Positions 15,133 to 45,577 of a DNA stretch of 64,000 nt are shown in pieces. Within the stretch, counting starts at the first letter, position 1, and every line of letters begins with the position of its first letter. The notes beneath the pieces were generated by a model. It was not told the origin of the DNA, made no database searches, and was given only the letters and a program-made list of their open reading frames with translations. Both the position numbers and the translations under genes were made by a program. This stretch comes from Saccharothrix saharensis (GTDB taxonomy: Bacteria; Actinomycetota; Actinomycetes; Mycobacteriales; Pseudonocardiaceae): positions 5,405,386-5,469,385 of the forward strand of contig NZ_VFPP01000001.1 in the NCBI RefSeq assembly GCF_006716745.1, in the 5' to 3' direction.

Positions 15133-15135
15133 GGG

Positions 15136-29200: not shown

Positions 29201-30251
29201 GGCGAACCGGTGGGCGGAGATCCGGCCCGCGATGAAGGACCTGCTCGGCACGCGGTTCGAGCTGCGCCTCGGTGACGTCAGCGAGTCCGAGGTGGACCGC
29301 AAGGTCGCGGTGAACGTGCCGCCCGGCCGCCCGGGTCGCGGTCTGTCGCCGCAGAAGCTGCACTTCCTGACCGCGCTGCCGCGCATCGACGCCTCGTCCG
29401 ACGCGGAGAACGTGGCGGCGGGCGTGCAGGACATGATCGCCAAGGTGAGCGGCGCCTGGCGCGGCCCGCGCGCGCCGCAGGTCCGCCTGCTGCCCGACCT
29501 GCTGCCGTACCCGGAGTTCCTGGGCCAGGTGCAGCAGCACCGGCCGAACCGGGGCCACCTGGTGCCGATCGGCGTCAACGAGGACGAGCTGGCGCCGGTG
29601 TACCTCGACTTCGACGCCGACCCGCACTTCATGGCGTTGGCCGACGGCGAGTCCGGCAAGACCAACCTGCTGCGCACGATCGTGCGCGGCATCATGACCA
29701 GCTACACCTCGACCGAGGCGCTGATCATGCTGGTCGACTACCGGCGCACCATGCTCGGCTACATCGAGACCGACCACCTGCTGTCCTACGCGGTGTCCTC
29801 GGCGCAGCTGACGGACATGATCAAGGACGTGCGGGGCTCGATGGCCAACCGCCTGCCCGGCCCGGACGTCACGCAGGAGCAGTTGAAGAACCGCTCCTGG
29901 TGGAAGGGCCCGGAGCTGTTCGTGGTCGTGGACGACTACGACCTGGTGGCGCCGCAGGGCGCGCAGAACCCGTTGCAGCCGCTGGCGGAGTTCATCCCGC
30001 AGGCCAAGGACGTGGGTCTGCACATCGTCGCGGTGCGCCGCATGGGTGGCGCGTCGCGGGCGATGTACGACCCGATCCTGGGCAAGCTGAAGGAGATCTC
30101 GGCGCCCATCATGGTCGGTTCCGGCTCGAAGGAGGAGGGCGCGATCGTGGGCAACCTGAAGGCGTCGCCGCAGCCTCCCGGTCGGGGCACGCTGGTCACC
30201 CGCAAGCTGGGCCAGCAGCGCATCCAGGTGGCGTGGATCGACCCGGACTGA
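26247..30251 (+). CDS. eccC: Type VII secretion ATPase EccC (three FtsK/SpoIIIE domains)
   Basis: A 1334-aa single-chain EccC (EccCa+EccCb). Two membrane helices near residues 35-90 precede three P-loop domains with Walker A motifs GATGSGKSE (about residue 484), GGPQSGKSM (about 842) and DGESGKTN (about 1132). The first is canonical; the other two end GKS/GKT but lack the second conserved Gly. EccC is the motor that recognises YxxxD/E-bearing substrates. The GTG start follows TTAG-GTGAG. Fusion of both halves is the ESX-4 arrangement. A terminator follows. Confidence 0.96.
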   Translation: MSTLQFKRTARLAAPRPPGGEVHLEPPPEVPRVIPGNIMMKAMPVVMIVSSVGMMVLMFSYSGRSPAAMIMPGMMLVSTIGMMAGGMGSGKGQKKAEMNEDRKDYLRYLGQMRDRAREAANEQRAEREWVHPDPQMLWSLATTRRMWERRQNDPDFCHLRAGRGSQRLATRLVPPQTGPVEELEPIATLALRRFVRAHSLVPDLPISIALRGFAAVGLLGDIEEKRGLARALLAQMVTFHSPDDLLIAVVTTGRTKAEWEWMKWLPHVQHPTIVDGIGQMRMMAGSLAEVEQMLDDQLRDRQRFTRNAPPPADQPHVVIVIDDGDVTREEQIILEEGLVGVTLLDLSESLGNLTARRGLRLVIEDGKLGARSASGVEWFGSPDWLSVVEAEALARRLSPYRIGGVDAGGSDEDPLSMSNNPPLLEFLGIPGDPMTFDVQAAWRPRPVRDRYRVPFGIGEFGQQVELDIKEAAMEGMGPHGLCIGATGSGKSEFLRTLVLGMLATHSSTSLNMILVDFKGGATFLGLDKAPHVAATITNLAGDLTLVDRMKDAIAGEVSRRQEVLAKGNYKNVWDYEKARENGADLDPLPALFICIDEFSEMLTAKPDFIDIFLQIGRVGRSLQMHMLLASQRLEEGKLRGLDTFLSYRIGLKTFSAAESRAAIGVPDAYELPPIPGSGYLGVQGSPLTRFKALYVSGPYRPAGLQVAGPSAPVTSDKRPRYFVPDYIEIPKEPVRPIEPVKQEKKEEDSNEPSELEVIVERLVGQGPPAHEVWLPPLNEPPSLDTLLPPLQATEDRGLTPPGFFSNGKLQVPLGVVDKPFEQRRDLLWADFSGAAGHGAIVGGPQSGKSMMLRTMITAMALTHTPQEVQFYCLDLGGGTLASLENLPHVGGFASRLDVDKARRMVAELSGLITEREQRFRAQGIDSMVEFRNRRRRGEIRDDNFGDAFLVVDGWMNFRQEFEALEPMVQALAAQGLSYGVHVVVAANRWAEIRPAMKDLLGTRFELRLGDVSESEVDRKVAVNVPPGRPGRGLSPQKLHFLTALPRIDASSDAENVAAGVQDMIAKVSGAWRGPRAPQVRLLPDLLPYPEFLGQVQQHRPNRGHLVPIGVNEDELAPVYLDFDADPHFMALADGESGKTNLLRTIVRGIMTSYTSTEALIMLVDYRRTMLGYIETDHLLSYAVSSAQLTDMIKDVRGSMANRLPGPDVTQEQLKNRSWWKGPELFVVVDDYDLVAPQGAQNPLQPLAEFIPQAKDVGLHIVAVRRMGGASRAMYDPILGKLKEISAPIMVGSGSKEEGAIVGNLKASPQPPGRGTLVTRKLGQQRIQVAWIDPD

Positions 30252-30268: not shown

Positions 30269-30298
30269 CGGGAGGCCCCGCCCAGGCGGGGCCTCCCG
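30269..30298 (+). terminator. Terminator after eccC
   Basis: A GC-rich stem of 13-14 bp (30269-30282 with 30285-30298), 17 nt after the eccC stop. It separates eccC from the regulator array. Confidence 0.75.
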
Positions 30299-30431: not shown

Positions 30432-30448
30432 CTCACACTCGACTCACG
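30432..30448 (+). promoter_or_regulatory. CTCAC direct repeats, 11-bp spacing, upstream of regulator array
   Basis: CTCACACTCGACTCACG contains CTCAC at 30432 and 30443, exactly one helical turn apart, 79 nt upstream of the first GTG of the array. Nearly the same sequence occurs at 33771. SARP/AfsR-type winged-helix proteins bind heptameric direct repeats with 11-bp periodicity, so this is a candidate autoregulatory operator. Confidence 0.45.
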
Positions 30449-30510
30449 CCGTCCCGGGGGTTGTCGGTGCGCTGCCCTATGCTTCGGCGCGCACGTTAGG
30501 GGGGTGGCGC

Positions 30511-30846
30511 GTGGAGACCGAGTTCAAGGTGCTCGGGCCCCTTGAGGTCTGGCACGGTGGCAGGCAGGTGGCGTTGCCGACGGGCAAGGCGCGCGTGCTG
30601 CCGGCGACTCTGCCGCTCCGCGCGGGTGACGTGGTGCCGACCGGTGTGCTGGTGGACCGGCTGTGGGACGGCAGGTCGGCGAACCCCGGCCGCGCCAGGG
30701 CGACGTTGCGACTGGGCGACACGCACGCGCCGGCGGGCGACCACGCCGCGGCGCGCGAGGCGTGGCAGGCGGCGCCGGCGATCCCGGAGGAGCCGGGGCA
30801 CGGCAACGTGGCGGCGTTGCGGGCGGAAGCGGCCGGTCTGCCGTGA
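30511..30846 (+). pseudogene. AfsR-type regulator remnant with internal deletion
   Basis: The 111-codon frame starts like the neighbouring regulators (VETEFKVLGPLEVWHGGRQV, then VDRLWDGRSANPGRARATL), which is the first part of the winged-helix domain. It then jumps directly into what looks like the final TPR of an AfsR protein (RLGDTHAPAGDHAAAREAWQ). The middle, about 800 codons in the intact paralogues, is gone without breaking the frame. Its stop overlaps the next regulator's GTG, so it may still act as a leader cistron for it. A short functional product is possible but unlikely. Confidence 0.75.
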
Positions 30847-33566
30847 CCGGGCCGGTGACCCGCTTCGCCGTCCTCGGGCCGCTGGAGGTGTGGCGCGGTG
30901 ACGAGCCGGTGGTGGTGCCCGCCGGCCGGGGCCGCGCGCTGCTGGCCGCGTTGCTGCTGCGGGCGGGCCAGGTGGTGACGGTCGACGAGCTGGTCGAGCG
31001 GCTGTGGGACGGCGACCGGCCCAACCCGCAGCGGAGCAGGGCGACGCTGCACATGGTGGTCGCCCGGCTGCGGCAGGCGCTGGGCGATCCGACCGTGGTG
31101 CGCACGGTCACGCACGGCTACGTGGCCGACGTCGCGCCCGGCGCGCTGGACCTGCACGAGTTCCGCGACCTGGCGGCGCGGGGCCGGTTCGCCGAGGCGC
31201 TGGCGCTGTGGCGCGGCACGCCGTTGTCGGACGTGCGGTCGGACGTGCTGCACGCCGAGGAGGTCGCGCCGCTGCTGGAGGAGCGGCTGACCGTCCTGGA
31301 ACGGCGCATCGACGTCGACCTGGAGGAGGGCCGGGCCGCCGAGCTGGTGCCGGAGCTGCGTGCGCTGACCCGGGAGCACCCGTTGCGGGAGCGGTTCTGG
31401 GCGATGCTCGTGCACGCCCTGCACCGGTCGGGGCGCACGGCCGAGGCGTTGGCGGCGTACCAGGAGGTGCGCGTGCTGCTGGCCGAGGAGCTGGGCGTGG
31501 AGCCGGGCGAGCAGTTGCGGGAGGCGCACCGGCTGGCCCTGGGCGCGGTGCCGGAGCCGCCCGGCCGGGTGGCCGCGCCCCGGCAGTTGCCCGCCGACGT
31601 GCGCAGCTTCACGGGCCGGCGGGACGAGGTGGCCGCGCTGGACCGGTTGGCGGCGCACGCGCGGGCGGCCACCGCGGTCGCGATCACCGGCATGGGCGGG
31701 CTGGGCAAGACGGCGCTGGCGGTGCACTGGGCGCACCGGGTGGCGGCCGACTTCCCGGACGGGCAGTTGATGGTCAACCTGCGCGGCTACGACCAGGAGT
31801 TCCCGCCGCTGACGCCGGAACAGGCGTTGACCCAGTTGCTCGGCGCGCTCGGCGTGCCCGCGGAACGGGTGCCCGCGGCCCTGGACGAGCAGGTCGCGCT
31901 GTACCGGTCGGTGCTGGCCGACCGGCGGATCCTGGTCGTGCTGGACAACGTCGCCGACGTGGCGCAGGTGCGGCCGCTGCTGCCGCCGGGCGCGGGCAAC
32001 TTCGCCGTGCTGACCGGCCGCAACGACCTGCGCGGCCTGGTGGCGCTGGACGACGCCGTGCTGGTGCGGCTGAACGGGTTGGCGCCGGCCGAGGCGGTGG
32101 ACCTGCTGCGCCGCGTCCTCGGCCCGGACCGGGTGGACGCGGAGCCGGACGCGATCGCCGAGCTGGTGGACCTGTGCGCGGGGCTGCCGCTGGCGCTGCG
32201 GGTGGCGGCGGCGACGCTGGCGGGCGAGCCGCGCGGCGTGGCCGACTACGTGACCGCGTTGCAGGCCGGTGACGGCCTCTCCGAGCTGGAGATCCCCGGC
32301 GACCCGGCGTCCGCGGTGCACAGCACGTTCTTCCTGTCGTACCGCGCGTTGACGCCGGCCGCGCAGCGGTTGTTCCGGCTGTTCGGCGTGGCGCCGTGCC
32401 GCGACCACACCGTCGAGACCGCCGCCGCGCTGGCCGGGATGGGCCTCGACGAGGCCAGGCGGGTGCTGGGCGAGCTGCTCCGCGCGCACCTGCTGGAACA
32501 GCCGCGGGCGGGCCGGTTCGTGCTGCACGACCTGCTGCGGCTGCACGCGGAGAGCACCGCGCGCAGCGAGGGGTCCGCGGCGGAGCACGACCTCGCCGTC
32601 ACCCGGTTGTTGGACTTCTACCTGCACAACATCGATCGCGCGGACCGGGTGATCCGGCCGACCCGCACCGAGCTGCCGCTGACCCCGGTCGACGGCGCCG
32701 TGCCGCTGCTGGCGTTCGCCGACCAGGCGGAGGCGGTGGCCTGGATCGACGGCGAGATGCCGAACCTGCGGCTGGTGATCCCGTACGCGGGCGAGCACGG
32801 CAGGCACGAGCACGCGTGGCAGATCCCGACCGCGCTGTGGGGCTACCTGTACCGCAACTACGTCTGGACCGAGTGGCGGGGGTTCACCGAGGTCGCGCTG
32901 GCGTCCGCGCGCCGGCTGGGCAACCGGTTCGCCGAGGCGGTGGCCCTGCACACGCTCGGCGGCATCACCCGCAACATGCGGCCCGAGGAGGCGCTGGACC
33001 ACCTGCACCAGGCGTTGGCGATCCGGGAGGAGATCGGCCACGTGCACGGCATGGCGGCAAGCTGCCTGGAGCTCGCGGGCGCCTACGAGTCGTTCGGCCG
33101 GCACGACGAGGCCGTCCGGTTCGGCGAGCGGGCGGTGCAGCTGTGGGCCGGGTCGGGCAACGAGCCCGCGCTGGCGATCGCGTTGAACAACCACGCCGGG
33201 ACGTTGAGCGCGGCCGGTCGCCACGAGCAGGCGCTGGAGGTGTGCCTGCGGGCCGTGGAGCTGTACCGGCGGCTGCCCGGCCGGTTGGCGCCGGCCGTGG
33301 TGGAGGAGACGTTGGCGCAGGTCCTGATCGGTCTCGGGCGGTTGACCGACGCGGCGGCGACCTACCAGCGGATCTTCGCGCGGGGCGTCGGCGAGTTGAA
33401 CAGCCTGTCCGCCATGCGGACCCACCTGAACTACGCGGACCTGCTGCTGCGCCTGGGCGACCCGGGCACCGCCCGCGTGCACCTGACCCACGCCCTGGAG
33501 CTGTGCGTCAAGGCGGGTTTCCCGCAGGAGGCCGAGATCCGGGCGCGGCTGGCCGGAGGGGAGTGA
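30843..33566 (+). CDS. AfsR-type transcriptional regulator (BTAD-NB-ARC-TPR), copy 1
   Basis: A 907-aa regulator. Residues 1-95 form an OmpR-type winged helix (FAVLGPLEVWRGDEPV, LVERLWDGDRPNPQRSRATL), followed by a bacterial transcriptional activation domain to about 245. The NB-ARC ATPase has P-loop GMGGLGKTALA at about 283-293 and Walker B ILVVLDNVADV. The C-terminal region of about 600-907 is TPR-like. Relatives such as AfsR activate secondary-metabolite genes; the target here is unknown. GTG 30843 overlaps the stop of the upstream remnant. Confidence 0.9.
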   Translation: MTGPVTRFAVLGPLEVWRGDEPVVVPAGRGRALLAALLLRAGQVVTVDELVERLWDGDRPNPQRSRATLHMVVARLRQALGDPTVVRTVTHGYVADVAPGALDLHEFRDLAARGRFAEALALWRGTPLSDVRSDVLHAEEVAPLLEERLTVLERRIDVDLEEGRAAELVPELRALTREHPLRERFWAMLVHALHRSGRTAEALAAYQEVRVLLAEELGVEPGEQLREAHRLALGAVPEPPGRVAAPRQLPADVRSFTGRRDEVAALDRLAAHARAATAVAITGMGGLGKTALAVHWAHRVAADFPDGQLMVNLRGYDQEFPPLTPEQALTQLLGALGVPAERVPAALDEQVALYRSVLADRRILVVLDNVADVAQVRPLLPPGAGNFAVLTGRNDLRGLVALDDAVLVRLNGLAPAEAVDLLRRVLGPDRVDAEPDAIAELVDLCAGLPLALRVAAATLAGEPRGVADYVTALQAGDGLSELEIPGDPASAVHSTFFLSYRALTPAAQRLFRLFGVAPCRDHTVETAAALAGMGLDEARRVLGELLRAHLLEQPRAGRFVLHDLLRLHAESTARSEGSAAEHDLAVTRLLDFYLHNIDRADRVIRPTRTELPLTPVDGAVPLLAFADQAEAVAWIDGEMPNLRLVIPYAGEHGRHEHAWQIPTALWGYLYRNYVWTEWRGFTEVALASARRLGNRFAEAVALHTLGGITRNMRPEEALDHLHQALAIREEIGHVHGMAASCLELAGAYESFGRHDEAVRFGERAVQLWAGSGNEPALAIALNNHAGTLSAAGRHEQALEVCLRAVELYRRLPGRLAPAVVEETLAQVLIGLGRLTDAAATYQRIFARGVGELNSLSAMRTHLNYADLLLRLGDPGTARVHLTHALELCVKAGFPQEAEIRARLAGGE

Positions 33567-33580
33567 GGCGCGGACCGACA

Positions 33581-33620
33581 TCGCGGGGTCGCCGACGGGG
33601 AGGAGTCGGCGGCCCCGCGA
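33581..33620 (+). terminator. Terminator after AfsR-type copy 1
   Basis: A 16-bp stem with one T-G wobble (33581-33596 with 33605-33620) and an 8-nt loop, 14 nt after the stop. The 317-nt gap to 33884 otherwise holds the CTCAC repeats described separately and no gene. Confidence 0.75.
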
Positions 33621-33770
33621 TCCGGTCGTCACCGCGGCGAGGGCCGGACGGGCGCGTCGCCCCCCGACGACCCGCCCGTCACCGGGACCGGCTTCCCCCC
33701 TCGATCGGACCTCCGGTCCCGCGGCCCGTTGGAGTCGCGGCGGTGCACGTGACCACTGTGCGCGACGGAC

Positions 33771-33797
33771 CTCACAATCGGCTCACGGCCTGCTCAC
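33771..33797 (+). promoter_or_regulatory. Three CTCAC direct repeats at exact 11-bp spacing
   Basis: CTCAC occurs at 33771, 33782 and 33793. The first 17 nt match the site at 30432 at 15 of 17 positions. It lies 87-113 nt upstream of the ATG of the second regulator unit. The helical phasing fits a SARP/AfsR-type binding site. Confidence 0.5.
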
Positions 33798-33883
33798 CCC
33801 GGCGGGAATCGCCCGCGACGCCGGGTGACGAGGGCGGGTACACAGGCGGCGTCGACACCACGTGGAGCGGAGGGCTGCCCGGT

Positions 33884-34254
33884 ATGACGGCGAACGTCCG
33901 GTTCGGCGTGCTCGGACCGCTGGACGTGCGGCTCGGCGAGCGGCCGGTGCCCTGCCCGCGGGGCGGGCGCGCGTGCTGCTGGCGACGTTGCTGCTGCGCG
34001 CCAACCGGCCGGTGGCGGTGGACGACCTGGTCGAGCGGCTGTGGGACGGCGACCCGCCCGACCCGCGCCGGGCCAGGGCCACGTTGCAGATGGCGGTGAC
34101 GCGGCTGCGGCAGGCGCTGGGCGAGGCGAACGTGGAGCGCACGGCCGGGAACGGCGACCTCGCCGACGTCCCGCCCGGCGCGCTGAACGCGGTCGGCTGG
34201 TTCCACACCGAGGCGGCGTCGCTGCGCGGGGAGATCGACCACCTGTCGTCGTGA
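33884..34254 (+). pseudogene. AfsR-type regulator remnant, frameshifted and truncated
   Basis: The ATG at 33884 begins a normal winged-helix start (MTANVRFGVLGPLDVRLGER). Near 33950-33965 the coding frame shifts, and the expected continuation (PAGRARVLLATLLLRANRPV, VERLWDGDPPDPRRARATLQ, LRQALGEANVERT) is read in another frame. After about 90 codons the similarity ends at NAVGWFHTE and a stop follows, so the activation, NB-ARC and TPR domains are missing. The clean match in both frames supports a single indel plus a 3' deletion. Confidence 0.8.
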
Positions 34255-34291
34255 CGTCACCAGGCGTGATCACGCCGGTACACTGGCGACC

Positions 34292-34477
34292 GTGGGGGAA
34301 AGGTCGATCACCGGGTTCGGGGTGCTCGGACCGCTCGGAGTCACGCGCGCCGCCCGCCCCGTCGCCGTCCCCGCGGGCAGGGCGCGGGTCCTGCCGGCCA
34401 CGTCGTTGGTGCGGGCGGGCGAGGTCGTCACCGCCACCGAGCCGGGCGTCGAACCGGGGTCACCGCACGGGCGCTGA
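34292..34477 (+). pseudogene. AfsR-type regulator remnant, N-terminal fragment
   Basis: A 61-codon frame from GTG 34292 begins ITGFGVLGPLGVTRAARPVA and VPAGRARVLPATSLVRAGEV, the first third of the winged-helix domain of its neighbours, then stops. Bases just after it in another frame (ALTRYAHTAANAVGRLPAEA) look like part of the post-NB-ARC region of an AfsR protein, suggesting a large internal deletion. The 183 nt to the next regulator hold nothing else recognisable. Confidence 0.65.
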
Positions 34478-34660
34478 CCCGGTACGCCCACACCGCGGCC
34501 AACGCCGTCGGGCGGCTGCCCGCCGAGGCGTCGGCCCGGCTCGGGTCCGGGTGGGGTCCGGGTGGGCGCGCTTCGTCCGGCTGGTGCGTGCCGCCACAAC
34601 TCGGTAGCCGCCCGGCGGCACGTCGTGAACCATGTCAACGCCGAGGTGGAAGGGGGTCCG

Positions 34661-37375
34661 GTGATCGAGTTCGCCGTGCTCGGTCCGCTGCGCGTGCGGG
34701 TCGACGGCCGGGACGTGCCGGTGCCCGCCGGCGCCGGGCGCACCCTGCTCGCCGCCCTGCTGCTGCGGGCCGACGAGGTCGTGCCCGCGGACCTGCTGGT
34801 CGACTGGCTGTGGGACGGGGCGCCGCCCAACCCGGAGCGCGCCAAGGCGACGTTGCACATGGCGGTGACCCGACTGCGCCGGGCGCTGGGCGAGGCGAAC
34901 GTGATCCGCACCGCCATCGGCGGTTACGTCGCCGAGGTGCCGCCCGACAGCCTCGACCTGCACCGCTACCGCGCGTTGGCCGGGCGGGGCGAGCACGCCG
35001 AGGCGCTGGCCCTGTGGCGCGGTGACCCGCTGCCGGACGTGCGGTCCGACCTGCTGCACCGCGACGAGGTCGCGCCCCTGCTGGAGCACCGCCTCGGCGT
35101 GCTCGAACAACGCCTCGACGGCGACATCGAGGCCGGTCGGGCCGCGCAGGTCGTGGAGGAGCTGCGGGTGCTGACCCGGCGGCACCCGGTGCGGGAGCGC
35201 TTCTGGGCCCAGCTGGTGCTGGCGCTGCACCGGTCGCAACGGCAAGCGGAGGCGTTGACCACCTACCAGGAGGTGCGCGCGCTCCTCGTCGAGGAGATCG
35301 GGGTGGAGCCGGGACCGGTGTTGCGCGAGGTCCACCGGCTGGTCCTGGCCGAGTCGGCCACGCCGGCGCGCGATGCCCGCCCGCCGCGCCAGTTGCCGGT
35401 CCGGCCGCGGGTCTTCGTCGGACGGCACCGCGCCCTGCGCGAGCTGGACGCCGCCGCGTCCGGTTCGGCCGTGGTGATCTCGGCGATCAGCGGCACGGCC
35501 GGCATCGGGAAGACCGCGCTGGCCGTGCACTGGGCGCACGAGGTCGCGGCGCGGTTCCCGGACGGCCAGCTGTACGTGAACCTGCGCGGCTACGACCCGT
35601 CCGGGCAGCCGATGCCGGCCGAGGACGCGCTGCGCGGGTTCCTCGAAGCGCTGGACGTGCCGCCGTCCCGGATCCCGCCGACGGCGCAGGGGCAGGCGTC
35701 GCTGTACCGCAGCCTGCTCGCGGGCCGGAGGGTCCTGGTGGTGCTGGACAACGCCCGTGACGCGGACCAGGTGCGGCCCCTGCTGCCCGGCACGCCCGGC
35801 TGCCTGGTGCTGGTCACCAGCCGCGACCGGCTCACGGGCCTGGTCGTGCGGGAAGGCGCCCGGCCCGTGCGGCTGGACCTGCTCGACCGCGACGAGGCCG
35901 TGGCGCTGCTGGAGGCCGGTGTGGGCCGGTCGCGGTCGACCGCCGAGCCGGAGGCGGTGGACCAGCTCGTCGCCCGGTGCGCGGGCCTGCCGCTGGCCCT
36001 GGCGGTGGTGGCGGCCCGCACGGCGGGCGCGCCCTCCGCGCCGTTGCGCGCGTTCGCCGACGAACTGGCGGCCGACCGCACGCGGCTGGACGCGCTGGAC
36101 ACCGGTGACCGGCTCACGTCGGTGCGCGACGTCTTCTCCTGGTCCTACCGGTACCTGAGCGACGACGCCGCCCTCGTGTTCCGGCTGCTCGGCCTGCACC
36201 CGGGCCCGGACATCTCGCCGGCCGCCGCGGCGAGCCTGGCCGCCCTGCCCCTCACCACGACCCGCCGCGCGCTCGCGGAGCTGGCGCGGGCGCACCTGGT
36301 CGCCGAGCAGGTCCCTGGCCGGTACTCGCTGCACGACCTGCTGCGCGGCTACGCCCGCGACCAGGCCGCCGAGGAGCACGCGCCGGCGGAGCTCCGCGAG
36401 GCCGGCACCCGCCTGCTCGACCACTTCGTGCGGACCGCCGAGCAGGCCGACAAGACGCTCTACCCGGAGCGCAAGCCGGTGGACCCGCCCCCGGCGCGGC
36501 CGGGCGTCCGGCCCGAGCACGTCGAGTCGCACGCCGCCGCGCTCGCCTGGTACGGCACCGAGTTCCGGACGTTGCTGGCGGTGGCGGCCCACGCGGCCGA
36601 GCACGCGTCGGACGCGCGGGCCTGGCTGATCCCCGAGTGCACCGCGACGTACTTCCACTCCAGCGGGCACTGGCCGGAGTGGCTGGACGCGTGCCGGCAG
36701 GCGTTGGGCGCGGCGCGACGGCTCGGCGACGTCCGGGGGCAGGCGGCCATGCACCGCGGCCTGGGCCGGGCGGCCACCCTGCTGCACCGGTGGGGCGAGG
36801 CCAGGGAGCACCTCGGCACGGCCCGCCGGCTGTTCCACGACCTCGGCGACCGCGTGTCCGAGGCTTACGTGCTGGTGAACCTCAGCGGCATCCAGGAGAC
36901 GGGCAACAGGTCCACCGAGGCGCTGCCGCTGCAACTGGCCGCGCTGGAGCTGTTCCGGGAGCTCGGCCACGCGCACGGGCAGGCGCGGGCGCTCACCGCG
37001 AGTTCCTGGAGCTACCACCTGATCGGCAGGCACGAGGAGGCGGTCCGGCACGCCACGGACGCGGTCCGGTGGTACGAGCGGCTGACCGACCTGCCCGGGC
37101 ACGCGGCGGCGTTCGGCACCCTGGGACTCGCCTACCGCGAGCTGGGACGGCTGGACGACGCGCTGACCATGATCCGCGAGAGCCTGGACCTCTTCGTGGA
37201 GTCCGGCGACCGCTACTACGAGGCCGGGGTGTGGCGCGACCTCGCCGAAACCCACCGGCGCCTGGGTGACCGGGAAGAGGCACGTGCCGCCGTCCGCGCG
37301 GCGCTGACGATCTTCGAGGAGCTCCGGCACCCGCTCGCCGACGAGGTGCGGCGCGAACTGGAAGAACTGGGTTGA
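34661..37375 (+). CDS. AfsR-type transcriptional regulator (BTAD-NB-ARC-TPR), copy 2
   Basis: A 904-aa regulator. The winged helix (FAVLGPLRVRVDGRDVPVP, WLWDGAPPNPERAKATLHM) is followed by a BTAD domain to about 245. The NB-ARC domain has P-loop GTAGIGKTALA (about 278-288) and Walker B VLVVLDNARDA; the TPR region ends in HRRLGDREEARAAVRAALTI. GTG 34661 follows AAGGGGG and begins where the homology begins. Its N-terminal third is close to the other copies but its TPR part is clearly diverged, so ligand or partner sensing may differ. Confidence 0.9.
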   Translation: MIEFAVLGPLRVRVDGRDVPVPAGAGRTLLAALLLRADEVVPADLLVDWLWDGAPPNPERAKATLHMAVTRLRRALGEANVIRTAIGGYVAEVPPDSLDLHRYRALAGRGEHAEALALWRGDPLPDVRSDLLHRDEVAPLLEHRLGVLEQRLDGDIEAGRAAQVVEELRVLTRRHPVRERFWAQLVLALHRSQRQAEALTTYQEVRALLVEEIGVEPGPVLREVHRLVLAESATPARDARPPRQLPVRPRVFVGRHRALRELDAAASGSAVVISAISGTAGIGKTALAVHWAHEVAARFPDGQLYVNLRGYDPSGQPMPAEDALRGFLEALDVPPSRIPPTAQGQASLYRSLLAGRRVLVVLDNARDADQVRPLLPGTPGCLVLVTSRDRLTGLVVREGARPVRLDLLDRDEAVALLEAGVGRSRSTAEPEAVDQLVARCAGLPLALAVVAARTAGAPSAPLRAFADELAADRTRLDALDTGDRLTSVRDVFSWSYRYLSDDAALVFRLLGLHPGPDISPAAAASLAALPLTTTRRALAELARAHLVAEQVPGRYSLHDLLRGYARDQAAEEHAPAELREAGTRLLDHFVRTAEQADKTLYPERKPVDPPPARPGVRPEHVESHAAALAWYGTEFRTLLAVAAHAAEHASDARAWLIPECTATYFHSSGHWPEWLDACRQALGAARRLGDVRGQAAMHRGLGRAATLLHRWGEAREHLGTARRLFHDLGDRVSEAYVLVNLSGIQETGNRSTEALPLQLAALELFRELGHAHGQARALTASSWSYHLIGRHEEAVRHATDAVRWYERLTDLPGHAAAFGTLGLAYRELGRLDDALTMIRESLDLFVESGDRYYEAGVWRDLAETHRRLGDREEARAAVRAALTIFEELRHPLADEVRRELEELG

Positions 37376-37380
37376 CCGCG

Positions 37381-40122
37381 GTGGGGGACGGGACGACCTT
37401 CCGGGTGCTCGGTCCGCTGGAGGTGTGGCGCGGTGACGTGCCCGTGCCGGTTCCGGCGGGGCGGGCGCGGTTGTTGTTGGCGGTGTTGCTGTTGCGGGCG
37501 AACCGGCCGGTGGCGGTGGACGAGTTGGTGGACCGGTTGTGGGACGGTGGTGCGTCGAACCCGGACCGGGCCAGGGCGACGTTGCAGATGGTGGTGCGGC
37601 GGCTGCGGCAGGCGCTGGGTGAGGCGAACGTGGTGCGCACGGTCACGAACGGCTACCTGGCCGAGGTGCCCGCGGGTGCGTTGGACCTGCACCGGTTCCG
37701 CGCGTTGGTGACCGACGAGCGGTTCGCCGAGGCGTTGGCGCTGTGGCGGGGTGACCCGCTGTCCGACGTGCTGCGTCCCGAGGAGGTCGCGCCGCTGGTG
37801 GAGGAGCGGTTGGCCGTCCTGGAACGGCGGGTCGAGGCGGACCTGGAGGCGGGCCGGGCCGCCGAGCTGGTGCCGGAGCTGCGCGCCTTGACGCGGGAGC
37901 ACCCGTTGCGCGAGCGGTTCTGGGCCGCGTTGGTGCCCGCCCTGCACCGGTCGGGGCGCACGGCCGAGGCGTTGGCCGCGTACCAGGAGGTGCGCACGCT
38001 GCTCGCCGACGAGCTGGGCGTGGACCCCGGTGAACGGCTGCGTGACGCGTACCAGGAGGTCCTGGGCGCGGGGGTCGGGCCGCGCGGCCGGCCGATCGCG
38101 CCCCGGCAGCTCCCGGCGGACGTGCGCAGCTTCACCGGGCGGCACGGGGAGATCGCGGAGCTGGACCGGGTGGCGGCGGACGCGCGGGTGGTCGCGATCA
38201 CCGGCATGGGCGGGCTGGGCAAGACGGCGCTGGCCGTGCACTGGGCGCACCGCGCGGCCGCGGCCTTCCCCGACGGGCAGCTGGTGGTCAACCTGCGCGG
38301 CTACGACCACGACCTCCGGCCGCTCACGCCCGGTCAGGCGTTGACCCACCTGCTCGGCGGGCTGGGCGTGGCGCCGGAACGCATCCCCCTCGGGCTGGAC
38401 GACCAGGTCGCGCTGTACCGGTCGGTGGTCGCCGACCGGCGCACCCTGGTCGTGCTGGACAACGCCGCCGACGTGGCGCAGGTGCGGCCGCTGCTGCCGC
38501 CCGGCGGCGGGAACTTCACCGTGATCACCGGCCGGGACGACCTGCGCGGCCTGGTCGCGCTGGACGACGCCGTGCTGGTCCGGCTGAACGGGCTCGCCCC
38601 GGCGGAGGCGGTGGACCTGCTGCGCCGCATCCTGGGCCCGGACCGGGTGGACGCCGAACCGGAAGCGGTCGCCGACCTGGTGCGGGTGTGCGCGGGGCTG
38701 CCGCTGGCGCTGCGGGTGGCCGCCGCGACCCTGACCGTCGAGCCGGGCGGCGTCGCCGACTACGTGGCCGCGCTGCGGTCGGGTGACCGGCTCGCCGAGC
38801 TGGAGATCCCCGGAGACCTGCCCGCCGCGGTCCGCTCGACGTTCAACCTGTCGTACCGGAAGCTGACGCCGACCGCGCAGCGGCTGTTCCGGCTGCTCGG
38901 CGTGACGCCGTGCCGCGACTTCACCGCCGAGTCCGCCGCGGCGCTGACCGGCGTCCGGCCGGACGAGGTGCGGTCGACGCTGGGCGAGCTGCTCCGCGCG
39001 CACCTGCTGGAACAGCACCGCCCGGGCCGGTACGCGCTGCACGACCTGCTGCGGCTGCACGCCGAGGGCCGCGCCCGGACCGACGAGACCGGGCCCGAGC
39101 GGGACCGGGCCGTGGACCGGTTGCTCGACTTCTACCTGCACAACGTCGACCGGGCGGACCGGGTGCTGCGCAAGAGCCGCACCGAGCTGCCGCTGACCCC
39201 GCTGACCGACGCCGTGCCGCTGGTGGCCTTCCCCGACCGCCGGCGCGCCGTGGGCTGGGTGGACGACGAGTTCCCGAACCTGCGGGTGCTGGTCGGGTTC
39301 GCGCGGGAGCGGGGCAGGCTGGAGCACGCCTGGCAGCTGCCCACCGGTCTGTGGGGCTACCTGTACCTGTCGTCGGTCTGGGCCGAGTGGTCGACGTTGA
39401 CCCGGATCGCGCTGGACTCGGCGCGCCTGCTGGGCAACCGGTTCGCCGAGGCCGTCGCGCTGCACACCCTCGGCAGCATCCACCGCAACACCCTGCGCGG
39501 CGAGGAGGCGGTGCCGCTGTTGCGCCAGGCGCTGGAGATCCGCGAGGAGATCGGGCACGGGCACGGCATCGCGGTGACCCTGACCGAGCTGGCGAGCGCG
39601 TACCAGGCGCTGGGCCGCTACGACCTGTCCGTCGAGCACGGCAGGCGCGCGGCCGAGCGGCGCGCCGAGCAGGGCGACCTGGCCGGCCTGGTCGTGACGT
39701 TGAACAACTACGCCGGGACGCTGCTGCTGGCGGGCGACCCGGAGCAGGCGCTGGAGGTGTGCCTGCGGGCGGTCGCGCTCAGCGAGCGGATGCCCGACCA
39801 GCCGGACTTCGGCGCGGTGAAGGACACCCTGGCGCAGATCCTGGCCAAGCTGGGCCGGTTGCGGGAGGCGGCGGACACGTACCGGGAGATCCTGGCGCAC
39901 GGCACCGAGGCGTGGAGCGGGCTGAACGTGGTGCGCCTGCACGCCAACTACGCCGACCTGCTGCTGTCGACGGGCGACCGGGACGCGGCCCGGACCCACC
40001 TGGTCCGCGCGCTGGACCTGTCGGTCGAGCGCGGCCTGCCGCACGAAGCCGACCTGCGGGCCCGGCTCGCCGCGCTCGGGGTGGGCGCGGACGAGGCGGG
40101 GGAGCCGCGCGGTCGGGCATGA
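37381..40122 (+). CDS. AfsR-type transcriptional regulator (BTAD-NB-ARC-TPR), copy 3
   Basis: A 913-aa regulator, the closest paralogue of copy 1 along its whole length (shared QLPADVRSFTGR, GMGGLGKTALAVHWAHR and HTLGSIHRNT/HTLGGITRN TPR motifs). The P-loop is near residues 275-285. The start is GTG 37381; a TTG at 37372 that overlaps the copy 2 stop is an alternative. It directly follows copy 2, so the two form one operon. The stop overlaps an ATG that opens a decayed fragment. Confidence 0.9.
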   Translation: MGDGTTFRVLGPLEVWRGDVPVPVPAGRARLLLAVLLLRANRPVAVDELVDRLWDGGASNPDRARATLQMVVRRLRQALGEANVVRTVTNGYLAEVPAGALDLHRFRALVTDERFAEALALWRGDPLSDVLRPEEVAPLVEERLAVLERRVEADLEAGRAAELVPELRALTREHPLRERFWAALVPALHRSGRTAEALAAYQEVRTLLADELGVDPGERLRDAYQEVLGAGVGPRGRPIAPRQLPADVRSFTGRHGEIAELDRVAADARVVAITGMGGLGKTALAVHWAHRAAAAFPDGQLVVNLRGYDHDLRPLTPGQALTHLLGGLGVAPERIPLGLDDQVALYRSVVADRRTLVVLDNAADVAQVRPLLPPGGGNFTVITGRDDLRGLVALDDAVLVRLNGLAPAEAVDLLRRILGPDRVDAEPEAVADLVRVCAGLPLALRVAAATLTVEPGGVADYVAALRSGDRLAELEIPGDLPAAVRSTFNLSYRKLTPTAQRLFRLLGVTPCRDFTAESAAALTGVRPDEVRSTLGELLRAHLLEQHRPGRYALHDLLRLHAEGRARTDETGPERDRAVDRLLDFYLHNVDRADRVLRKSRTELPLTPLTDAVPLVAFPDRRRAVGWVDDEFPNLRVLVGFARERGRLEHAWQLPTGLWGYLYLSSVWAEWSTLTRIALDSARLLGNRFAEAVALHTLGSIHRNTLRGEEAVPLLRQALEIREEIGHGHGIAVTLTELASAYQALGRYDLSVEHGRRAAERRAEQGDLAGLVVTLNNYAGTLLLAGDPEQALEVCLRAVALSERMPDQPDFGAVKDTLAQILAKLGRLREAADTYREILAHGTEAWSGLNVVRLHANYADLLLSTGDRDAARTHLVRALDLSVERGLPHEADLRARLAALGVGADEAGEPRGRA

Positions 40123-40818
40123 GGGCGTCGTGGGCGTGCCCGCGCGCGCTGAGCGGGATGAACCCGCTGGTCGAGCACCGACCCGGCCGCTTCTCCCGGC
40201 ACGACCTCGTGCACGCTTACGCCCGCGAGGTCGTGGCCGGGTGCTTGGGGCCGGCTCGACCACTACCTGCACACCGCGAAGGAGGTCGAGTCCGTGCGCG
40301 CCCCCCACCGCGACCCCGGGACACCACTCGACCCGCCGGCCTGGCTGGAACCGGAGAGGACCACCGTGTCGGGGGTGGTCGAGCAGGCGCCGGCCGCGGC
40401 CCGCGCCACCGGCGACCGGCGGGCCCGCGCCAACCTCCACGCCGACCCGCGCGTCCTGCACGAGGACGACGGCAAGCACGTGGAGGCGCTGGACCATGCC
40501 CGACAGACCTTGGCGATCGCGGACGGGCCGGGTGAGGCCATGCTCCACCGCCGCACCCTCGACCCGGCCGGCCACCTCCACCACCGCGTCGGCACCCTCG
40601 CCGACGCGGTGCGCGGCTACGTCGTAGCGCCGCCGGTGCACCGGTCCATCGGCGAGCGCTACGACGAAGCCCTGACCCCGGACCGCCCGGGCGACACCCT
40701 GGCGGCCTCGGGCGACCACGACGCGGCGCGCCGGCTGTGGTCCGGGGCCGTGACCGCGCCGGACGGCCCGGGTCGCGCCGCCGCGCACCGCGCCCAGGCC
40801 GAGGCGGGCCCGCCGTGA
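40119..40818 (+). pseudogene. AfsR-type regulator remnant, C-terminal part, frameshifted
   Basis: From ATG 40119 (overlapping the copy 3 stop) the frame reads NPLVEHRPGRFSRHDLVHAY, which is the end-of-NB-ARC/winged region of AfsR proteins. Near 40245 the similarity moves to another frame (LDHYLHTAKEVESVRAPHRD). From about 40294 to 40818 an open frame continues with degraded TPR-like sequence (EALDHARQTLAIADGPGEAM). The N-terminal DNA-binding and P-loop regions are missing. Its end overlaps the GTG of copy 4. Confidence 0.7.
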
Positions 40819-43709
40819 CCGCCGCGGGACCGCGCCCGGCCGTCCGGTTCACCCTGCTGGGCCCGCTGGAGGTGTGGCACGGTGACGTGCCCGTCCCGAT
40901 CCCCGCCGGCCGCGCGCGGGTGCTGCTGGCCACCTTGCTGTTGCGGGCGAACCAGCCGGTGCCGGTGGACGCATTGGTCGAGCGGCTGTGGGGTGACGCC
41001 GCGCCGAACCCCGACCGGGTCAAGGCGACGTTGCAGATGGCGGTGCGGCGACTGCGGCAAGCGCTCGGCGACGCCAACGTCGTGCGGACGGCCACCAACG
41101 CGTACGTGGCCGAGGTCGACCCCGAGTCGGTCGACCTGCACCGGTTCCGCCGACTGGCGGCGGGAGGCCGGCACGCCGAGGCGCTGGCGTTGTGGCGCGG
41201 CGAGCCGTTGTCGGACGTCGAGTCGGACGCGCTGCACCGCGAGGACGTCGAGCCGCTGCGCGACGAGTGGTTGGCCGTGCTGGAACGACGGGTCGAAGCG
41301 GACCTGGCGGCGGGCCGGGCCGCCGGGCTCGTCCCCGAGCTGCGCGCGCTGACCAGGGCGTACCCCCTCAGGGAGCGGTTCTGGGGTCAGCTGGTGCTGG
41401 CCCTGCACGGCAGCGACCGGCAGGGCGAGGCGCTGGCCGCGTTCCGCGAGGTGCGCGAGCTGCTGGCCGAGGAGCTGGGCGTCGACCCCAGCGAGTACCT
41501 GCGCGCGGTGCACCGCACCGTGCTGGCCGGTGACGCGAGGCCCGCGCTCACGCCGTGGACCGCCCTGTGCCAGCTGCCCCCGGACACGGCCGACTTCATC
41601 GGCCGCGACGACCTGTGCGCCCGTGCGTCGGCGCTGCTCACCGACCGGTCGCGGACGGCGGTGCCGGTGGTCGCGATCACCGGGGCACCCGGCACGGGCA
41701 AGAGCACCCTGACCGTCCGCGTCGCGCACGCCCTGCGCGACCGGTTCCCGGACGGCCAGCTGTTCGTCCGCCTGGACGGCGCCGGCGCGGCGCCGCGCGA
41801 CCCGGCCGAGGTGCTGGCCGAGCTGCTGACGGCGGTCGGCCTCAACCCCGCCGCCATGCCGGACCGGCTCGAGGCCCGCGCCGCCGCGTTCCGGTCCCGC
41901 GTCGCCGACCGCGCGGTGCTCCTGGTCCTGGACGACGCCGCGCGCTTCGACCAGGTGCGGCACCTCCTGCCCGGCACGGCGACCAGCGCGGTGCTGATCA
42001 GCAGCCGGCACCTGCTCGGCGGCCTGCCCGGTGTCCACTCGCTGCGCGTGCCGCCGCTGACCGCCTCGGCGGGACTCGCCCTGCTGTCGCGGGTGATCGG
42101 CGACGGCCGGGTCGAGGCGGAGGCCGGGGCCGCGGCCTCGATCGCGGAGGCGTGCGGCGGCCTGCCGCTGGCTCTGCGGATCGTCGGCGCGCGGCTGGCC
42201 GCGCGGCCGTCGTTGCCGCTGGCCAAGCTGGCCGACCGGCTCGCCGACGAACGCCGCAGGCTGGACGAGCTGGCCGCGGGTGACCTGGAGGTCCGCGCCG
42301 GCCTGGAGCTGAGCTACGAGGCGTTGCCGCCCGACGCGGCGCTCGCGTTCCGCAGGTTGGGGCTGATCGGCGCGTCCGACGTGGCGTCCTGGGCGGTCAA
42401 GGCGCTGACCGGCTTGGCCGACCCGGAGCAGCCGATCGAGCGGTTGGTCGAGGCCAACCTGCTGGAGGAGGTGGGCCGTGACGCGACCGGCGAGCCGCGC
42501 TACCGGCTGCACGACATCCTGGCCGTGTACGCCGCCGAACTGGTCGAGCAGGACGACGGCGGCACCCGGGCGCTGCGGGCCTACCTCGACGCGCTGACCG
42601 CGCTCGCGGACGCCGCGTGCCACCGGCTGGCGGCGACCGTGGACGAGCTGCCCCTGATCCCGGCGGAACCGTCGACCGTGCTCACCGCGGCGGAGGTCGA
42701 CCGGTTGACCGAGGACGGCGTCAAGTGGCTGCTGGTCGAGCAGGTCCCGCTGGAGCGCGCCATCGAGGTGGCCTGCCGCCGGGGCTGGGGAGCGGTGGCG
42801 GCCGGGCTCTACCAGCGCACGGTCAGGTACCTCGACGTCTACATCCCCCTGGACCGGGTGGCCGAACTGGCCGAGCGGGTGGCCGGCGTCCTGCACGCCG
42901 GGGGTGACGTCCGGTTGGCGTGGGGCGTGGAGTTCCACCGGGTCTACCAACTGCTCAAGCGCTCCGTCGAGGACGGCCTGTTGCAGCAGTTGGAGCGGTG
43001 CGCCGAGGTGTTCGGGCAGCACGGCGACACCGTGGAGGAGGCGATCGCCCTGGCGACGCTCGCGCACTACGGCCACATCAACGGCCAGGAGTCGGCGATC
43101 GACCTGGCCCGTCGCGCGGTCGAGGCGGGGCGGAACAGCGGTTCCCGCACCGCCTACTGCTCGACGGTGCGGGAGCTGGCCCTGATCCTCGGCGAGTCGG
43201 GACGTCACCGGGAATCCCTGGCCTGCTTCGAGGAGGCGTTGGCGATCTCCCGCGACCTCGGGCCGCTCCCCGAGGCCCAGGTGCACTACGGCATCGCCCG
43301 GTGCGCGCTGGACAGCGGCGACGTCGACCGGGCGGTCGAAGCGGTGGACCGGGCGGTGCGCCTCGTCGGGACGATCGACGACCCGCGGGCCGCGGGCTGG
43401 GTGACGAACCTCGCCGGCCGGGTGAAGCTCGCCGCCGGCGACCACGCCGAGGGCGTGCGGCTCGCCGGCCGGGCGCACCGGATCTTCGTCGACATCGGGG
43501 AAGGCATCGGCGTGGTGGACGCGGTGGCGTCCATGGCCGAGGGCTACCTGGAGCTCGGCCGGCCCGAGGACGCGCTGGCCGTGCTGGAACCGGCGATGCG
43601 CGAGTACCGGGACGTCGGCGCGGCCCAGGCGATCGACAGGTTGCGACAGGCCCTCCAGCGGGCCTCGGCCGTGGTCCCGCGACCCGGCGGCGCACCGTCG
43701 GTCCCGTGA
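40815..43709 (+). CDS. AfsR-type transcriptional regulator (BTAD-NB-ARC-TPR), copy 4
   Basis: A 964-aa regulator. The winged helix and BTAD (FTLLGPLEVWHGDVPVPIP; LWGDAAPNPDRVKATLQMAV) are close to copies 1 and 3. The NB-ARC part is distinct: the FIGRDDLCARA linker, P-loop GAPGTGKSTLT (about 290-300), Walker B VLLVLDDAARF and a different TPR tail. This suggests a shared DNA-binding head fused to a different sensor module. GTG 40815 overlaps the stop of the remnant upstream. Confidence 0.9.
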   Translation: MTAAGPRPAVRFTLLGPLEVWHGDVPVPIPAGRARVLLATLLLRANQPVPVDALVERLWGDAAPNPDRVKATLQMAVRRLRQALGDANVVRTATNAYVAEVDPESVDLHRFRRLAAGGRHAEALALWRGEPLSDVESDALHREDVEPLRDEWLAVLERRVEADLAAGRAAGLVPELRALTRAYPLRERFWGQLVLALHGSDRQGEALAAFREVRELLAEELGVDPSEYLRAVHRTVLAGDARPALTPWTALCQLPPDTADFIGRDDLCARASALLTDRSRTAVPVVAITGAPGTGKSTLTVRVAHALRDRFPDGQLFVRLDGAGAAPRDPAEVLAELLTAVGLNPAAMPDRLEARAAAFRSRVADRAVLLVLDDAARFDQVRHLLPGTATSAVLISSRHLLGGLPGVHSLRVPPLTASAGLALLSRVIGDGRVEAEAGAAASIAEACGGLPLALRIVGARLAARPSLPLAKLADRLADERRRLDELAAGDLEVRAGLELSYEALPPDAALAFRRLGLIGASDVASWAVKALTGLADPEQPIERLVEANLLEEVGRDATGEPRYRLHDILAVYAAELVEQDDGGTRALRAYLDALTALADAACHRLAATVDELPLIPAEPSTVLTAAEVDRLTEDGVKWLLVEQVPLERAIEVACRRGWGAVAAGLYQRTVRYLDVYIPLDRVAELAERVAGVLHAGGDVRLAWGVEFHRVYQLLKRSVEDGLLQQLERCAEVFGQHGDTVEEAIALATLAHYGHINGQESAIDLARRAVEAGRNSGSRTAYCSTVRELALILGESGRHRESLACFEEALAISRDLGPLPEAQVHYGIARCALDSGDVDRAVEAVDRAVRLVGTIDDPRAAGWVTNLAGRVKLAAGDHAEGVRLAGRAHRIFVDIGEGIGVVDAVASMAEGYLELGRPEDALAVLEPAMREYRDVGAAQAIDRLRQALQRASAVVPRPGGAPSVP

Positions 43710-43713
43710 GGTA

Positions 43714-43753: not shown

Positions 43754-45577
43754 ATGAGCTTGCACGTGGCGGTGGACTTCGGCACGTCCAGCACCTGCGT
43801 CGCCATGTCCCGGCACGGCCGCGAACCGCAGGTCGTCGTGGTCGACGGGCAGCCGATCGTGCCGTCCGCGGTGTTCGCGGCGGCCGACGGCACGCTGTTC
43901 GTCGGGCAGGAGGCCGAGCGCCAGGCGGCGGTGGACCCGTCCCGCTACGAGCCGCACCCCAAGCGCCGCGTCGACGAGGGCGAGCTGCTGCTCGGCACCA
44001 GCGTGCTGCCCGTGGTCGACGTCGTGCGCGCCGTGCTGACCAGGGCCGTGGACGAGGCGCGGCACGTGGCCGGCGGCGCCCGGGTCGACCTGCTCGTGCT
44101 CACCCACCCGGCGGACTGGGGCGCGATCCGCACCAGGGTGCTGCTCCAGGCCGCACGGGGACTCGGCCAGGAGGTCCGGCTGGTGCCCGAGCCGGTCGCG
44201 GCGGCGGTGTTCCACTCGGCGACCCACGCCATCCCCGACGGCGCGGCGCTGGCCGTGCTCGACCTCGGCGGCGGCACGGTGGACGCCAGCGTGGTGGCCC
44301 GCCAGGGCGGCGCGTTCCGCGTGCTGGCCACCAAGGGCGACCCCGGTTTCGGCGGCGCGGACGTCGACCAGGCGCTGCTGGAGCACGTCGGCTCGCTGGT
44401 CTCGCCCGGCGACCCGGACGCCTGGCGCCGGCTCGTCGAGGGCCGCGAGCTGGCCGACCGCCGCAAGCGCCGGGTGCTGCGCCAGGACGTGCGCGGCGCG
44501 AAGGAGACGCTGTCCCGGCACGCCTACACCGACGTGCCGATGCCGCCGCCGTTCCCCGACGCCCACGTCACCCGCACCGACCTGGAACGCCTGATCAGCA
44601 CGCCGCTGACCCGCGCCGCCGCCCTGGTGGTCACGGCGGTGCGCGACGCCGGGCTCGACCCGCGCGGCCTGGCCGGCGTGTTCCTGGTCGGCGGGTCCAG
44701 CCGCATCCCGCTGGTGGCGCGCCTGGTGCTGGAGCAGTCCGGCGTGGTGCCCACGAGCATCGACCAGCCGGAGACCGTGGTGGCGCGCGGCGCGCTGCGG
44801 GCGGTCAGCGTGGACCCGCTGCGGACGGGCGCGCTGCCCGCCGGCCAGGGCGACGTCACCCGGAAGATCACCGACGACCGGACCCGCAAGATCACCCGGC
44901 GGATCACCCCGCCCTCGCCGCCCGCCGGGTTCGCGCAGCCCGGGTACTTCCCGCCGCCCGCGCCCCCGCCACCGCCCGCGCCCCCGCCACCGCCCGCGCC
45001 GCCGCGCCGCAGCCGCGTGCCGCTGCTCGTGACGGCCGTCGTCGTGGTGGTCGCGATCGTGGGCGCGTCCGTGGCGTACGCGCTGTCCCGGGACGACGAC
45101 ATCGGCGGTGGACCGACGACGCCCACCACGACCTCGACCGGCGTGGCGGGCAAGACCATCGCGCAGTACGACTACAGCTTCGTCGCGCCGGGCGGCTGGC
45201 AGCAGACCGGCGGCCAGGTCGAGACCCGCAAGGTGCTGCTCAAACCCGAGTCGGCCGGCTCCGAGCTGGACGTCATCGCGGTGGAGGAGCGGCTGCTCAA
45301 CTACAACGCCACCGAGGACCGGGGCCGGGCCGAGGCCGAGCTGCGCGACCAGTACGACCAGCGCGAGAACGTGTCCGACTTCGACCCTTCCGCGGACTTC
45401 GCCACCAAGGATGTCGTTTACTACCGGGAACAGGTGGGGTCGGCCGTCATCGACTGGTACGTGCTGTTCCAGGACGACGTACAGGTCAGCGTCGGGTGCC
45501 AGTACCCGCAGGACGGGCACGACCGGGTCCGCCCCGCGTGCGAGCAGGTGGTCGGCACGCTGACCGTGACCAAGTGA
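43754..45577 (+). CDS. Hsp70-like type VII secretion-associated membrane protein (Rv3446c-type)
   Basis: A 607-aa protein. Residues 1-360 form an actin-like Hsp70 ATPase domain (VAVDFGTSSTCVAMSRHG, VLDLGGGTVDASVV, VFLVGGSSRIPLVARLV). A Pro-rich linker (PPPAPPPPPAPPPPPAPP) leads to one membrane helix near 422-444. A C-terminal extracytoplasmic domain of about 140 residues follows (YDYSFVAPGGWQQTGGQVET). This order and position match the Rv3446c-type protein of mycobacterial ESX-4, whose C-terminal domain is a T7SS-associated family. No substrate-binding domain like that of DnaK is present. Confidence 0.87.
   Translation: MSLHVAVDFGTSSTCVAMSRHGREPQVVVVDGQPIVPSAVFAAADGTLFVGQEAERQAAVDPSRYEPHPKRRVDEGELLLGTSVLPVVDVVRAVLTRAVDEARHVAGGARVDLLVLTHPADWGAIRTRVLLQAARGLGQEVRLVPEPVAAAVFHSATHAIPDGAALAVLDLGGGTVDASVVARQGGAFRVLATKGDPGFGGADVDQALLEHVGSLVSPGDPDAWRRLVEGRELADRRKRRVLRQDVRGAKETLSRHAYTDVPMPPPFPDAHVTRTDLERLISTPLTRAAALVVTAVRDAGLDPRGLAGVFLVGGSSRIPLVARLVLEQSGVVPTSIDQPETVVARGALRAVSVDPLRTGALPAGQGDVTRKITDDRTRKITRRITPPSPPAGFAQPGYFPPPAPPPPPAPPPPPAPPRRSRVPLLVTAVVVVVAIVGASVAYALSRDDDIGGGPTTPTTTSTGVAGKTIAQYDYSFVAPGGWQQTGGQVETRKVLLKPESAGSELDVIAVEERLLNYNATEDRGRAEAELRDQYDQRENVSDFDPSADFATKDVVYYREQVGSAVIDWYVLFQDDVQVSVGCQYPQDGHDRVRPACEQVVGTLTVTK

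Follow-up and report, generated by a model that had tools for sequence, protein, structure and literature searches.

Large SARPs of Streptomyces, AfsR among them, are built in the order head, NB-ARC (NOD), arm and TPR, and are associated with operators made of direct repeats with an 11-bp period close to the -35 region. In the excerpted text of PMC10936776, the NOD and TPR parts of AfsR are inhibitory, ATP relieves the inhibition, and the AfsR box consists of two 11-bp direct repeats. The excerpt of PMC10972967 describes SARP sites as heptamer repeats with spacers, and medium SARPs as proteins consisting of a head and an NB-ARC part without TPR.

Herein, an array of such regulators from Saccharothrix saharensis is compared with these systems. 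The window, i.e., the whole stretch of 64,000 nucleotides that was analysed, belongs to a genome of 8.92 Mb with 45 BTAD matches, 41 of which are non-array. The array shares the domain order with AfsR and other large Streptomyces SARPs, and its candidate operators are repeats with an 11-bp period comparable to the AfsR box, but it differs in that the genes stand in tandem at a single locus, with a CTCAC repeat of their own, apparently exchanged sensors and relics left in place; in addition, the TPR part of regulator D lies beyond the AfsR sequence match. Gene clusters encoding NLRs in plants and fungi undergo gene turnover, and these clusters and bacterial STAND receptors have the STAND core, the variable repeat sensor and the gene turnover in common with the array, whereas the output of the array is a DNA-binding head. 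A diversified sensor on a STAND core is also found in the DGR-diversified STAND sensors, as the excerpt of PMC10907252 presents them; in the array, by contrast, whole cassettes appear to be replaced by recombination. Gene G of the array matches the medium SARPs, as outlined in the excerpt of PMC10972967, in size (637–660 aa), but it is part of an array and has the array head, and its missing TPR is judged by length. No description of a comparable array was found in the titles and abstract openings among the literature matches listed, a body of text mostly outside subscription journals. Large SARPs as such are known; what distinguishes the array is their probable organisation around a single type of head and operator, to which different sensors can be joined.

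The regulator array and its flanks

The array occupies positions 30252–43753 of the window, within an ESX-4-type locus, where it is enclosed by eccC on one side and the Hsp70-like gene on the other (Table 1). A sequence-only reading had placed four full-length regulators and four remnants exactly between these two genes, most of them chained by start/stop overlaps. The array is confirmed: the 13,502 bp from the eccC stop (30251) to the Hsp70-like start (43754) are filled by four intact genes, A–D, and four relics, rE–rH, and overlaps are present at three junctions (rE/A, B/C and rH/D). The flanks are assigned to an ESX-4-type locus because EccB (TIGR03919), EccC (TIGR03924 and TIGR03925), the Rv3446c-type domain (TIGR03931) and GlmM (TIGR01455) exceed the NCBIfam cut-offs. 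Further genes are designated eccD, mycP and WXG100 genes by position, and the gene order, with glmM adjoining, presumably corresponds to that of mycobacterial ESX-4. The closest named relatives found through the Hsp70-like protein are Saccharothrix species, with identities of at most 92%.

Table 1. Features of the array and its two flanking genes (window coordinates).
Feature	Position	Strand	Description
eccC	26247..30251	+	Left flank, ESX-4-type locus; TIGR03924, TIGR03925 over cut-off
Hairpin	30269..30298	+	3' of eccC; 13-bp stem, 4-nt loop; terminator-like without T run
Predicted operator 1	30432..30447	+	CTCAC direct repeats, 11-bp period, before rE/A
-10-like TATGCT	30478..30483	+	Putative role; in 9/10 aligned E-bearing sequences
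rE	30511..30846	+	Relic of regulator E, one internal in-frame deletion
A	30843..33566	+	Regulator, wHTH-BTAD-NB-ARC-TPR, 907 aa
Predicted operator 2	33771..33797	+	Three CTCAC repeats, 11-bp period, before rF, ~0.9 kb before B
rF	~33884..34251	+	Relic of regulator F with disrupted frame and deletions inside
rG	~34310..34607	+	Relic of short regulator G; ~46 first and ~60 last residues left
B	34661..37375	+	Regulator, 904 aa; own upstream DNA without exact operator
C	37372..40122	+	Regulator, 916 aa; 4-bp overlap with B
rH	~40119..40818	+	Relic of regulator H, lacking the head and most of NB-ARC; deletions in the sensor part
D	40815..43709	+	Regulator, 964 aa; member of ortholog cluster with two TPR classes
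Hsp70-like gene	43754..45577	+	Right flank, T7SS_Rv3446c domain; PF00012; TIGR03931 over cut-off

Each of A, B, C and D matches wHTH (Trans_reg_C), BTAD, NB-ARC and TPR in that order and above curated cut-offs, with B passing the Trans_reg_C cut-off by 0.1 bit. This is the domain order of large SARPs of the AfsR type, and D also matches AfsR (8k60) by sequence over residues 9–597 (E 5e-95). The start codons of A–D are predicted ones, and the open frames extend further upstream.

An AlphaFold model of D, built on 12 sequences, is of moderate quality (mean pLDDT 75, pTM 0.46), and its residues 581–953 fold into a superhelix of helical repeats with pLDDT values mostly above 80. Residues 245–252 and 543–580, near the two breakpoints discussed below, are among twelve low-confidence segments, which is weak support because many of these segments lie in the head. 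Structures matched by the model include STAND-TPR proteins, Apaf-1 and plant resistosomes (TM over query at most 0.27). Together with presence/absence turnover and replaced sensors, these matches would suit a conflict or immune receptor cluster, in which variable sensors on STAND proteins recognise molecules of phages or competitors and trigger a transcriptional response. Such a role is very unlikely, however: PADLOC gave only partial matches for A–C to generic TPR-protein models (best 3e-11, B) and for D to mads_8 and Csx3, with no defence model covering the whole of any of the four proteins, the head is a transcription factor and not a killing domain, and dN/dS is below 1 in close orthologs.

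Among the six A–D pairs, protein identity is 60–70% in the wHTH part of the head, 62–78% in BTAD, 40–81% in NB-ARC and 22–57% in TPR. The DNA-binding heads had been read as near-identical, which pairwise values of only 60–78% contradict. Greater divergence of the NB-ARC and TPR parts, also proposed, is seen as a fall in identity from head to NB-ARC to TPR, except for the pair A/C, which peaks in NB-ARC (81%). Furthermore, dS is 0.30–0.68 in the heads and 0.38–0.74 in the TPR parts, so that constraint accounts for part of the contrast seen at the protein level. Median dN/dS is 0.28–0.35 in head, NB-ARC and TPR alike (38 close pairs). Such uniform values would be compatible with ordinary tandem duplicates of large SARPs, evolving by birth and death, in which the heads stay alike through DNA-binding constraint, the sensors drift and no parts are exchanged.

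Distribution, slot order and relics

Relatives were found via the Hsp70-like protein, and the best 80 of 169 loci were compared. In this set, regulators stand upstream of the Hsp gene in 12 of the 13 loci from Saccharothrix and 21 of the 22 from Lentzea, which include one labelled Nocardia sp. NRRL S-836. Both flanks are visible in 41 loci of other genera, and in none of these does a regulator separate eccC from Hsp; eccC is out of view in four further loci of other genera. The two genes lie side by side without an array, 14–583 bp apart, in 39 of these 41 loci, and two Saccharopolyspora intervals of 5–6 kb contain other genes. Among the best 80 of 169 loci, eccC–Hsp regulator arrays are restricted to Saccharothrix and Lentzea. 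Initially, eccC was out of view in nine of the 33 array loci; six were completed, and L015, L023 and L034 stop at contig ends. Within the window's own genus group, 18 of 24 genomes carry the array and six do not, in a set that overlaps the named species and in which L015 ends at a contig end. In one genome (G028) the array is that of L011, and a full-length eccC stands on another contig without an array. The EccC protein of the window shares 97–98% identity with that of eight array genomes, whereas the best A–D orthologues are 77–88% identical. Before counting, L016, L017, L018 and L043 (duplicates of L132, L119, L120 and L122), L034, open-ended ORFs, ORFs shorter than 620 aa and one L015 ORF were dropped.

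Comparison of the eccC–Hsp intervals also shows that the array differs from relative to relative, in agreement with its portrayal as a changing locus; gene content varies. S. carnea has six genes (E-A-F-G-B-H), strain S26 has E-A-F-G-H, and the short gene G is open in four relatives. The window reads rE-A-rF-rG-B-C-rH-D, and every relic in it corresponds to a gene that is intact in the same slot in other genomes. For instance, rE retains its start, roughly the initial 66 and the final 46 codons of E, the GTGA overlap with A and the predicted upstream operator. With slot labels assigned by NB-ARC identity, 64 ordered pairs in the Saccharothrix group yield a single conflict, which concerns B/H in L131. 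The order read from the window, relics included, is in agreement 44 times (six of these come from intact genes of the window itself) and in disagreement once. Much of the array turnover is loss in place within a kept slot order, a pattern that tandem duplication with birth and death would also produce. A tRNA-Ala call falls inside rH. The proposal that gene H is an in-genus chimera was judged weak.

Ancestry of heads and sensors

Three-domain trees were built from 86 of the 91 array genes, five genes shorter than 800 aa being excluded. Misfit between the trees of head, NB-ARC and TPR amounts to a delta lnL of 424–2121, compared with only 58–126 for trees from random half-columns of one domain, which the AU test rejects as well. 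Normalised tree distances are 0.43–0.58 across domains and 0.40–0.58 between random halves of one domain. Because the cross-domain distances barely exceed the within-domain ones, a point in favour of plain tandem duplicates, topology alone is weak, and the evidence lies in the size of the likelihood loss, which speaks against them.

Genus changes between the Saccharothrix group (49 genes) and Lentzea (37 genes) number one for the head, six for NB-ARC and eight for TPR. Two sensor groups, D and A/C (25 genes), are present in both genera; in these, cross-genus pairs with the same sensor have head identities within 3 points of unrelated pairs over C residues 6–205, and the signal reverses at residues 206–245, which comprise the BTAD end and the linker to NB-ARC. 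The ancestry switch is located at this BTAD/NB-ARC linker. Against this genome's other SARPs, the 91 array heads form one clade (SH-aLRT 99, printed as 92 after re-rooting); the dispersed comparison set comprised 31 ORFs, representing 28 distinct genes of the 41 non-array BTAD matches. Array monophyly is rejected for NB-ARC (AU p 7.8e-8) and for TPR (AU p 0.0024), and changes between array and other SARPs number seven on the NB-ARC tree, seven on the TPR tree and one on the head tree. A fast NB-ARC tree set the dispersed SARP L103 next to group D with support 96, and grouping the D heads with L103 is rejected on head data (AU 0.0002); a longer NB-ARC search, however, did not place L103 beside group D. 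Several lineages, interleaved with dispersed SARPs, make up the NB-ARC and TPR parts of the array.

The regulators had also been described as actively recombining, and this stands in part. Recombination between head and sensor is indicated by the misfit of the domain trees, the monophyly tests and the TPR replacement in two clusters described below. Recent recombination within genomes is not, as heads are no more alike within than between genomes: 33 of 63 matched comparisons are positive, with a mean excess of +0.28% in protein and +0.87% at third positions. This absence of a within-genome excess, an excess that recent concerted evolution would produce, speaks against recent gene conversion, which the 63 comparisons do not support. 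The heads may either have been homogenised per genus long ago, or one head family may have captured sensors repeatedly.

Replacement of TPR sensors

A single TPR class is kept in 12 of 14 ortholog clusters, as tandem duplicates would predict, and more than one occurs in two: the gene D cluster has two classes among five genes and one Lentzea group seven among 12. Between the D genes of L112 and L126, DNA identity is 84–97% through head and NB-ARC and drops to 52–76% in the arm and TPR, a segment of about 1,050 bp. It returns to 88–99% at the end of the gene and stays there for the initial 0.1 kb of the Hsp gene, at which point the L112 sequence stops. A similar break separates L036 and L039 of Lentzea (77–97%, 40–67% and 77–100%), with a longer right flank. 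In discordant pairs, defined by a conserved head and NB-ARC and a TPR identity below 55%, TPR dS exceeds head+NB dS in 23 of 23 cases (median ratio 1.79), compared with 50 of 67 concordant pairs (ratio 1.1); pairs share genes in both sets and are non-independent. Faster protein change instead of replacement is disfavoured as a cause of the TPR break because synonymous divergence is also raised and the DNA is conserved on both sides. The arm and TPR appear to have been swapped as one cassette in two ortholog clusters.

The raised dS in the replaced TPR parts, the rejected NB-ARC monophyly and the heads of groups D and A/C, which across genera are no more alike with the same sensor than without, make tandem duplication without exchange of parts improbable.

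Candidate operator repeats

Among the 75 array regulators with upstream DNA of their own (at least 60 bp), exact CTCAC repeats precede 50; the other 25, window B among them, lack them. The repeats are found at 22 of the 40 regulators from the Saccharothrix group and at 28 of the 35 from Lentzea, where mononucleotide shuffles gave 0 and 0.1. Operator 2 of the window stands before a relic, rF. A site matrix yielded 120 strong sites (score >15) inside the intervals, some from the duplicate records L016, L017, L018 and L043, and none outside array intervals in the locus sequence examined; the absence outside is the informative part because the matrix was trained on inside sites. Four weaker TCAC-N7-TCAC matches outside the intervals (L011, L120, L124 and L131) score no higher than 15. 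In the window, no site apart from those at the array scores >12, and the one-mismatch pattern is not significantly enriched (five matches, reached by 7 of 100 shuffles).

On the scale of 24 genomes, there are 55 occurrences of the exact pattern, 26 of them at the array by manual count, with at least one at the array in 18 of 18 array genomes and none in the six array-less genomes. The reversed control pattern gives 15 occurrences, to be set against the 29 found away from the array. The window's own genome contains the exact pattern five times, two of them at the array, and the control pattern 0 times. A tighter variant has four sites in this genome: one at the array, one at 3016882, an exact-pattern site with no promoter by inspection, a third some 0.5 kb upstream of the BTAD match at 4602778, and a fourth preceding an ORF that looks like deoC by eye. 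One head lineage (wHTH+BTAD) and one type of CTCAC repeat with an 11-bp period mark the locus.

These sites also bear on the possibility that the array acts as a set of local ESX-4 regulators, sensing a cue and controlling eccC, the Hsp70-like gene and WXG100-type genes. Its fixed position within the ESX locus in two genera would fit such a role, as would the Hsp70-like start 44 bp past D and the last regulators of relatives' arrays, which often end near the Hsp start. Nevertheless, we consider it unlikely, given the lack of strong operators outside the intervals in the loci examined and the side-by-side position of eccC and Hsp in nearly all array-less loci of other genera among the best 80 of 169. 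A hairpin 3' of eccC is likewise seen with and without an array: stems of at least 8 bp also occur there in the other 35 array and nine array-less sequences, counted as raw presence. On the same raw presence, the array as a splitter of an eccC–Hsp operon was rejected. The link to control of secretion that had been proposed receives no support from the operator positions.

A proposed switch bank and its significance

The locus is probably best explained as a bank of autoregulated large SARP switches, in which one locus-private head and operator are combined with exchangeable STAND sensors. By analogy with AfsR, the TPR sensor would keep its own NB-ARC and head inactive, and ligand and ATP would free the head. 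The freed head would then bind the common repeats and activate the array's own promoters, an autoactivation suggested by the operator positions, and one sensor could thereby raise the expression of its neighbours. Recombination at the linkers would wire a new sensor to the old operator. A more far-reaching and unlikely version sees a bacterial counterpart of NLR clusters with transcriptional output. One head and operator would be kept, STAND-TPR sensors would be exchanged with dispersed paralogues and neighbouring species, and rewiring would connect changing, perhaps non-self, ligands to one autoactivating circuit.

As a probable bank of switches, the locus offers a natural test bed for rewiring bacterial sensors to a common switch, since a presumed operator and a small set of cognate heads are available in one place. 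Its apparent natural chimeras point to positions at which SARP/STAND proteins tolerate fusion, namely the BTAD/NB-ARC linker and the NB-ARC/arm junction. In addition, it makes testable what the sensors of large SARPs detect, and how sensor specificity may evolve while the output remains unchanged.

Variant gene arrangements around eccC and the Hsp70-like gene

Coordinates of individual features
Feature	Locus	Position	Strand
tRNA-Ala (ggc) call, 94 nt	window	40330-40423	-
Two AfsR-type regulators	L045 (Solihabitans fulvus)	13146-19174	
Array-less interval	L027 (Umezawaea endophytica)	9421-10001	
Additional predicted operators	L040 (Lentzea)	6521-7230	

The Umezawaea endophytica locus has no array between eccC and the Hsp70-like gene, yet this interval still contains two sequences resembling the operator, which score 19.1 and 17.6 with the matrix, together with a weak regulator-like match. 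The interval looks as if it had once housed an array that was subsequently lost. In four other array-less loci (L117, L121, L123 and L125), an ORF encoding 213-225 aa lies on the minus strand between eccC and the Hsp70-like gene. In Solihabitans fulvus the two regulators lie not upstream of the Hsp70-like gene but downstream, at a distance of about 1.3 kb.

In Lentzea, two or three additional operators are predicted between eccC and the first regulator, as at L040; operator positions in L025, L031 and L038 are similar. At L040, the one locus whose sequence was inspected, they are interleaved with hairpin-like sequences; this stretch perhaps represents short transcripts or remnants of lost genes.

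Genome G028 has a full eccC (L130, contig C66; 96% identical), followed by other genes, in addition to an eccC end at the array contig (L011, C65), reflecting either a second copy or an assembly fault. The tRNA called by ARAGORN within rH, the relic of regulator H, on the opposite strand, is probably false.
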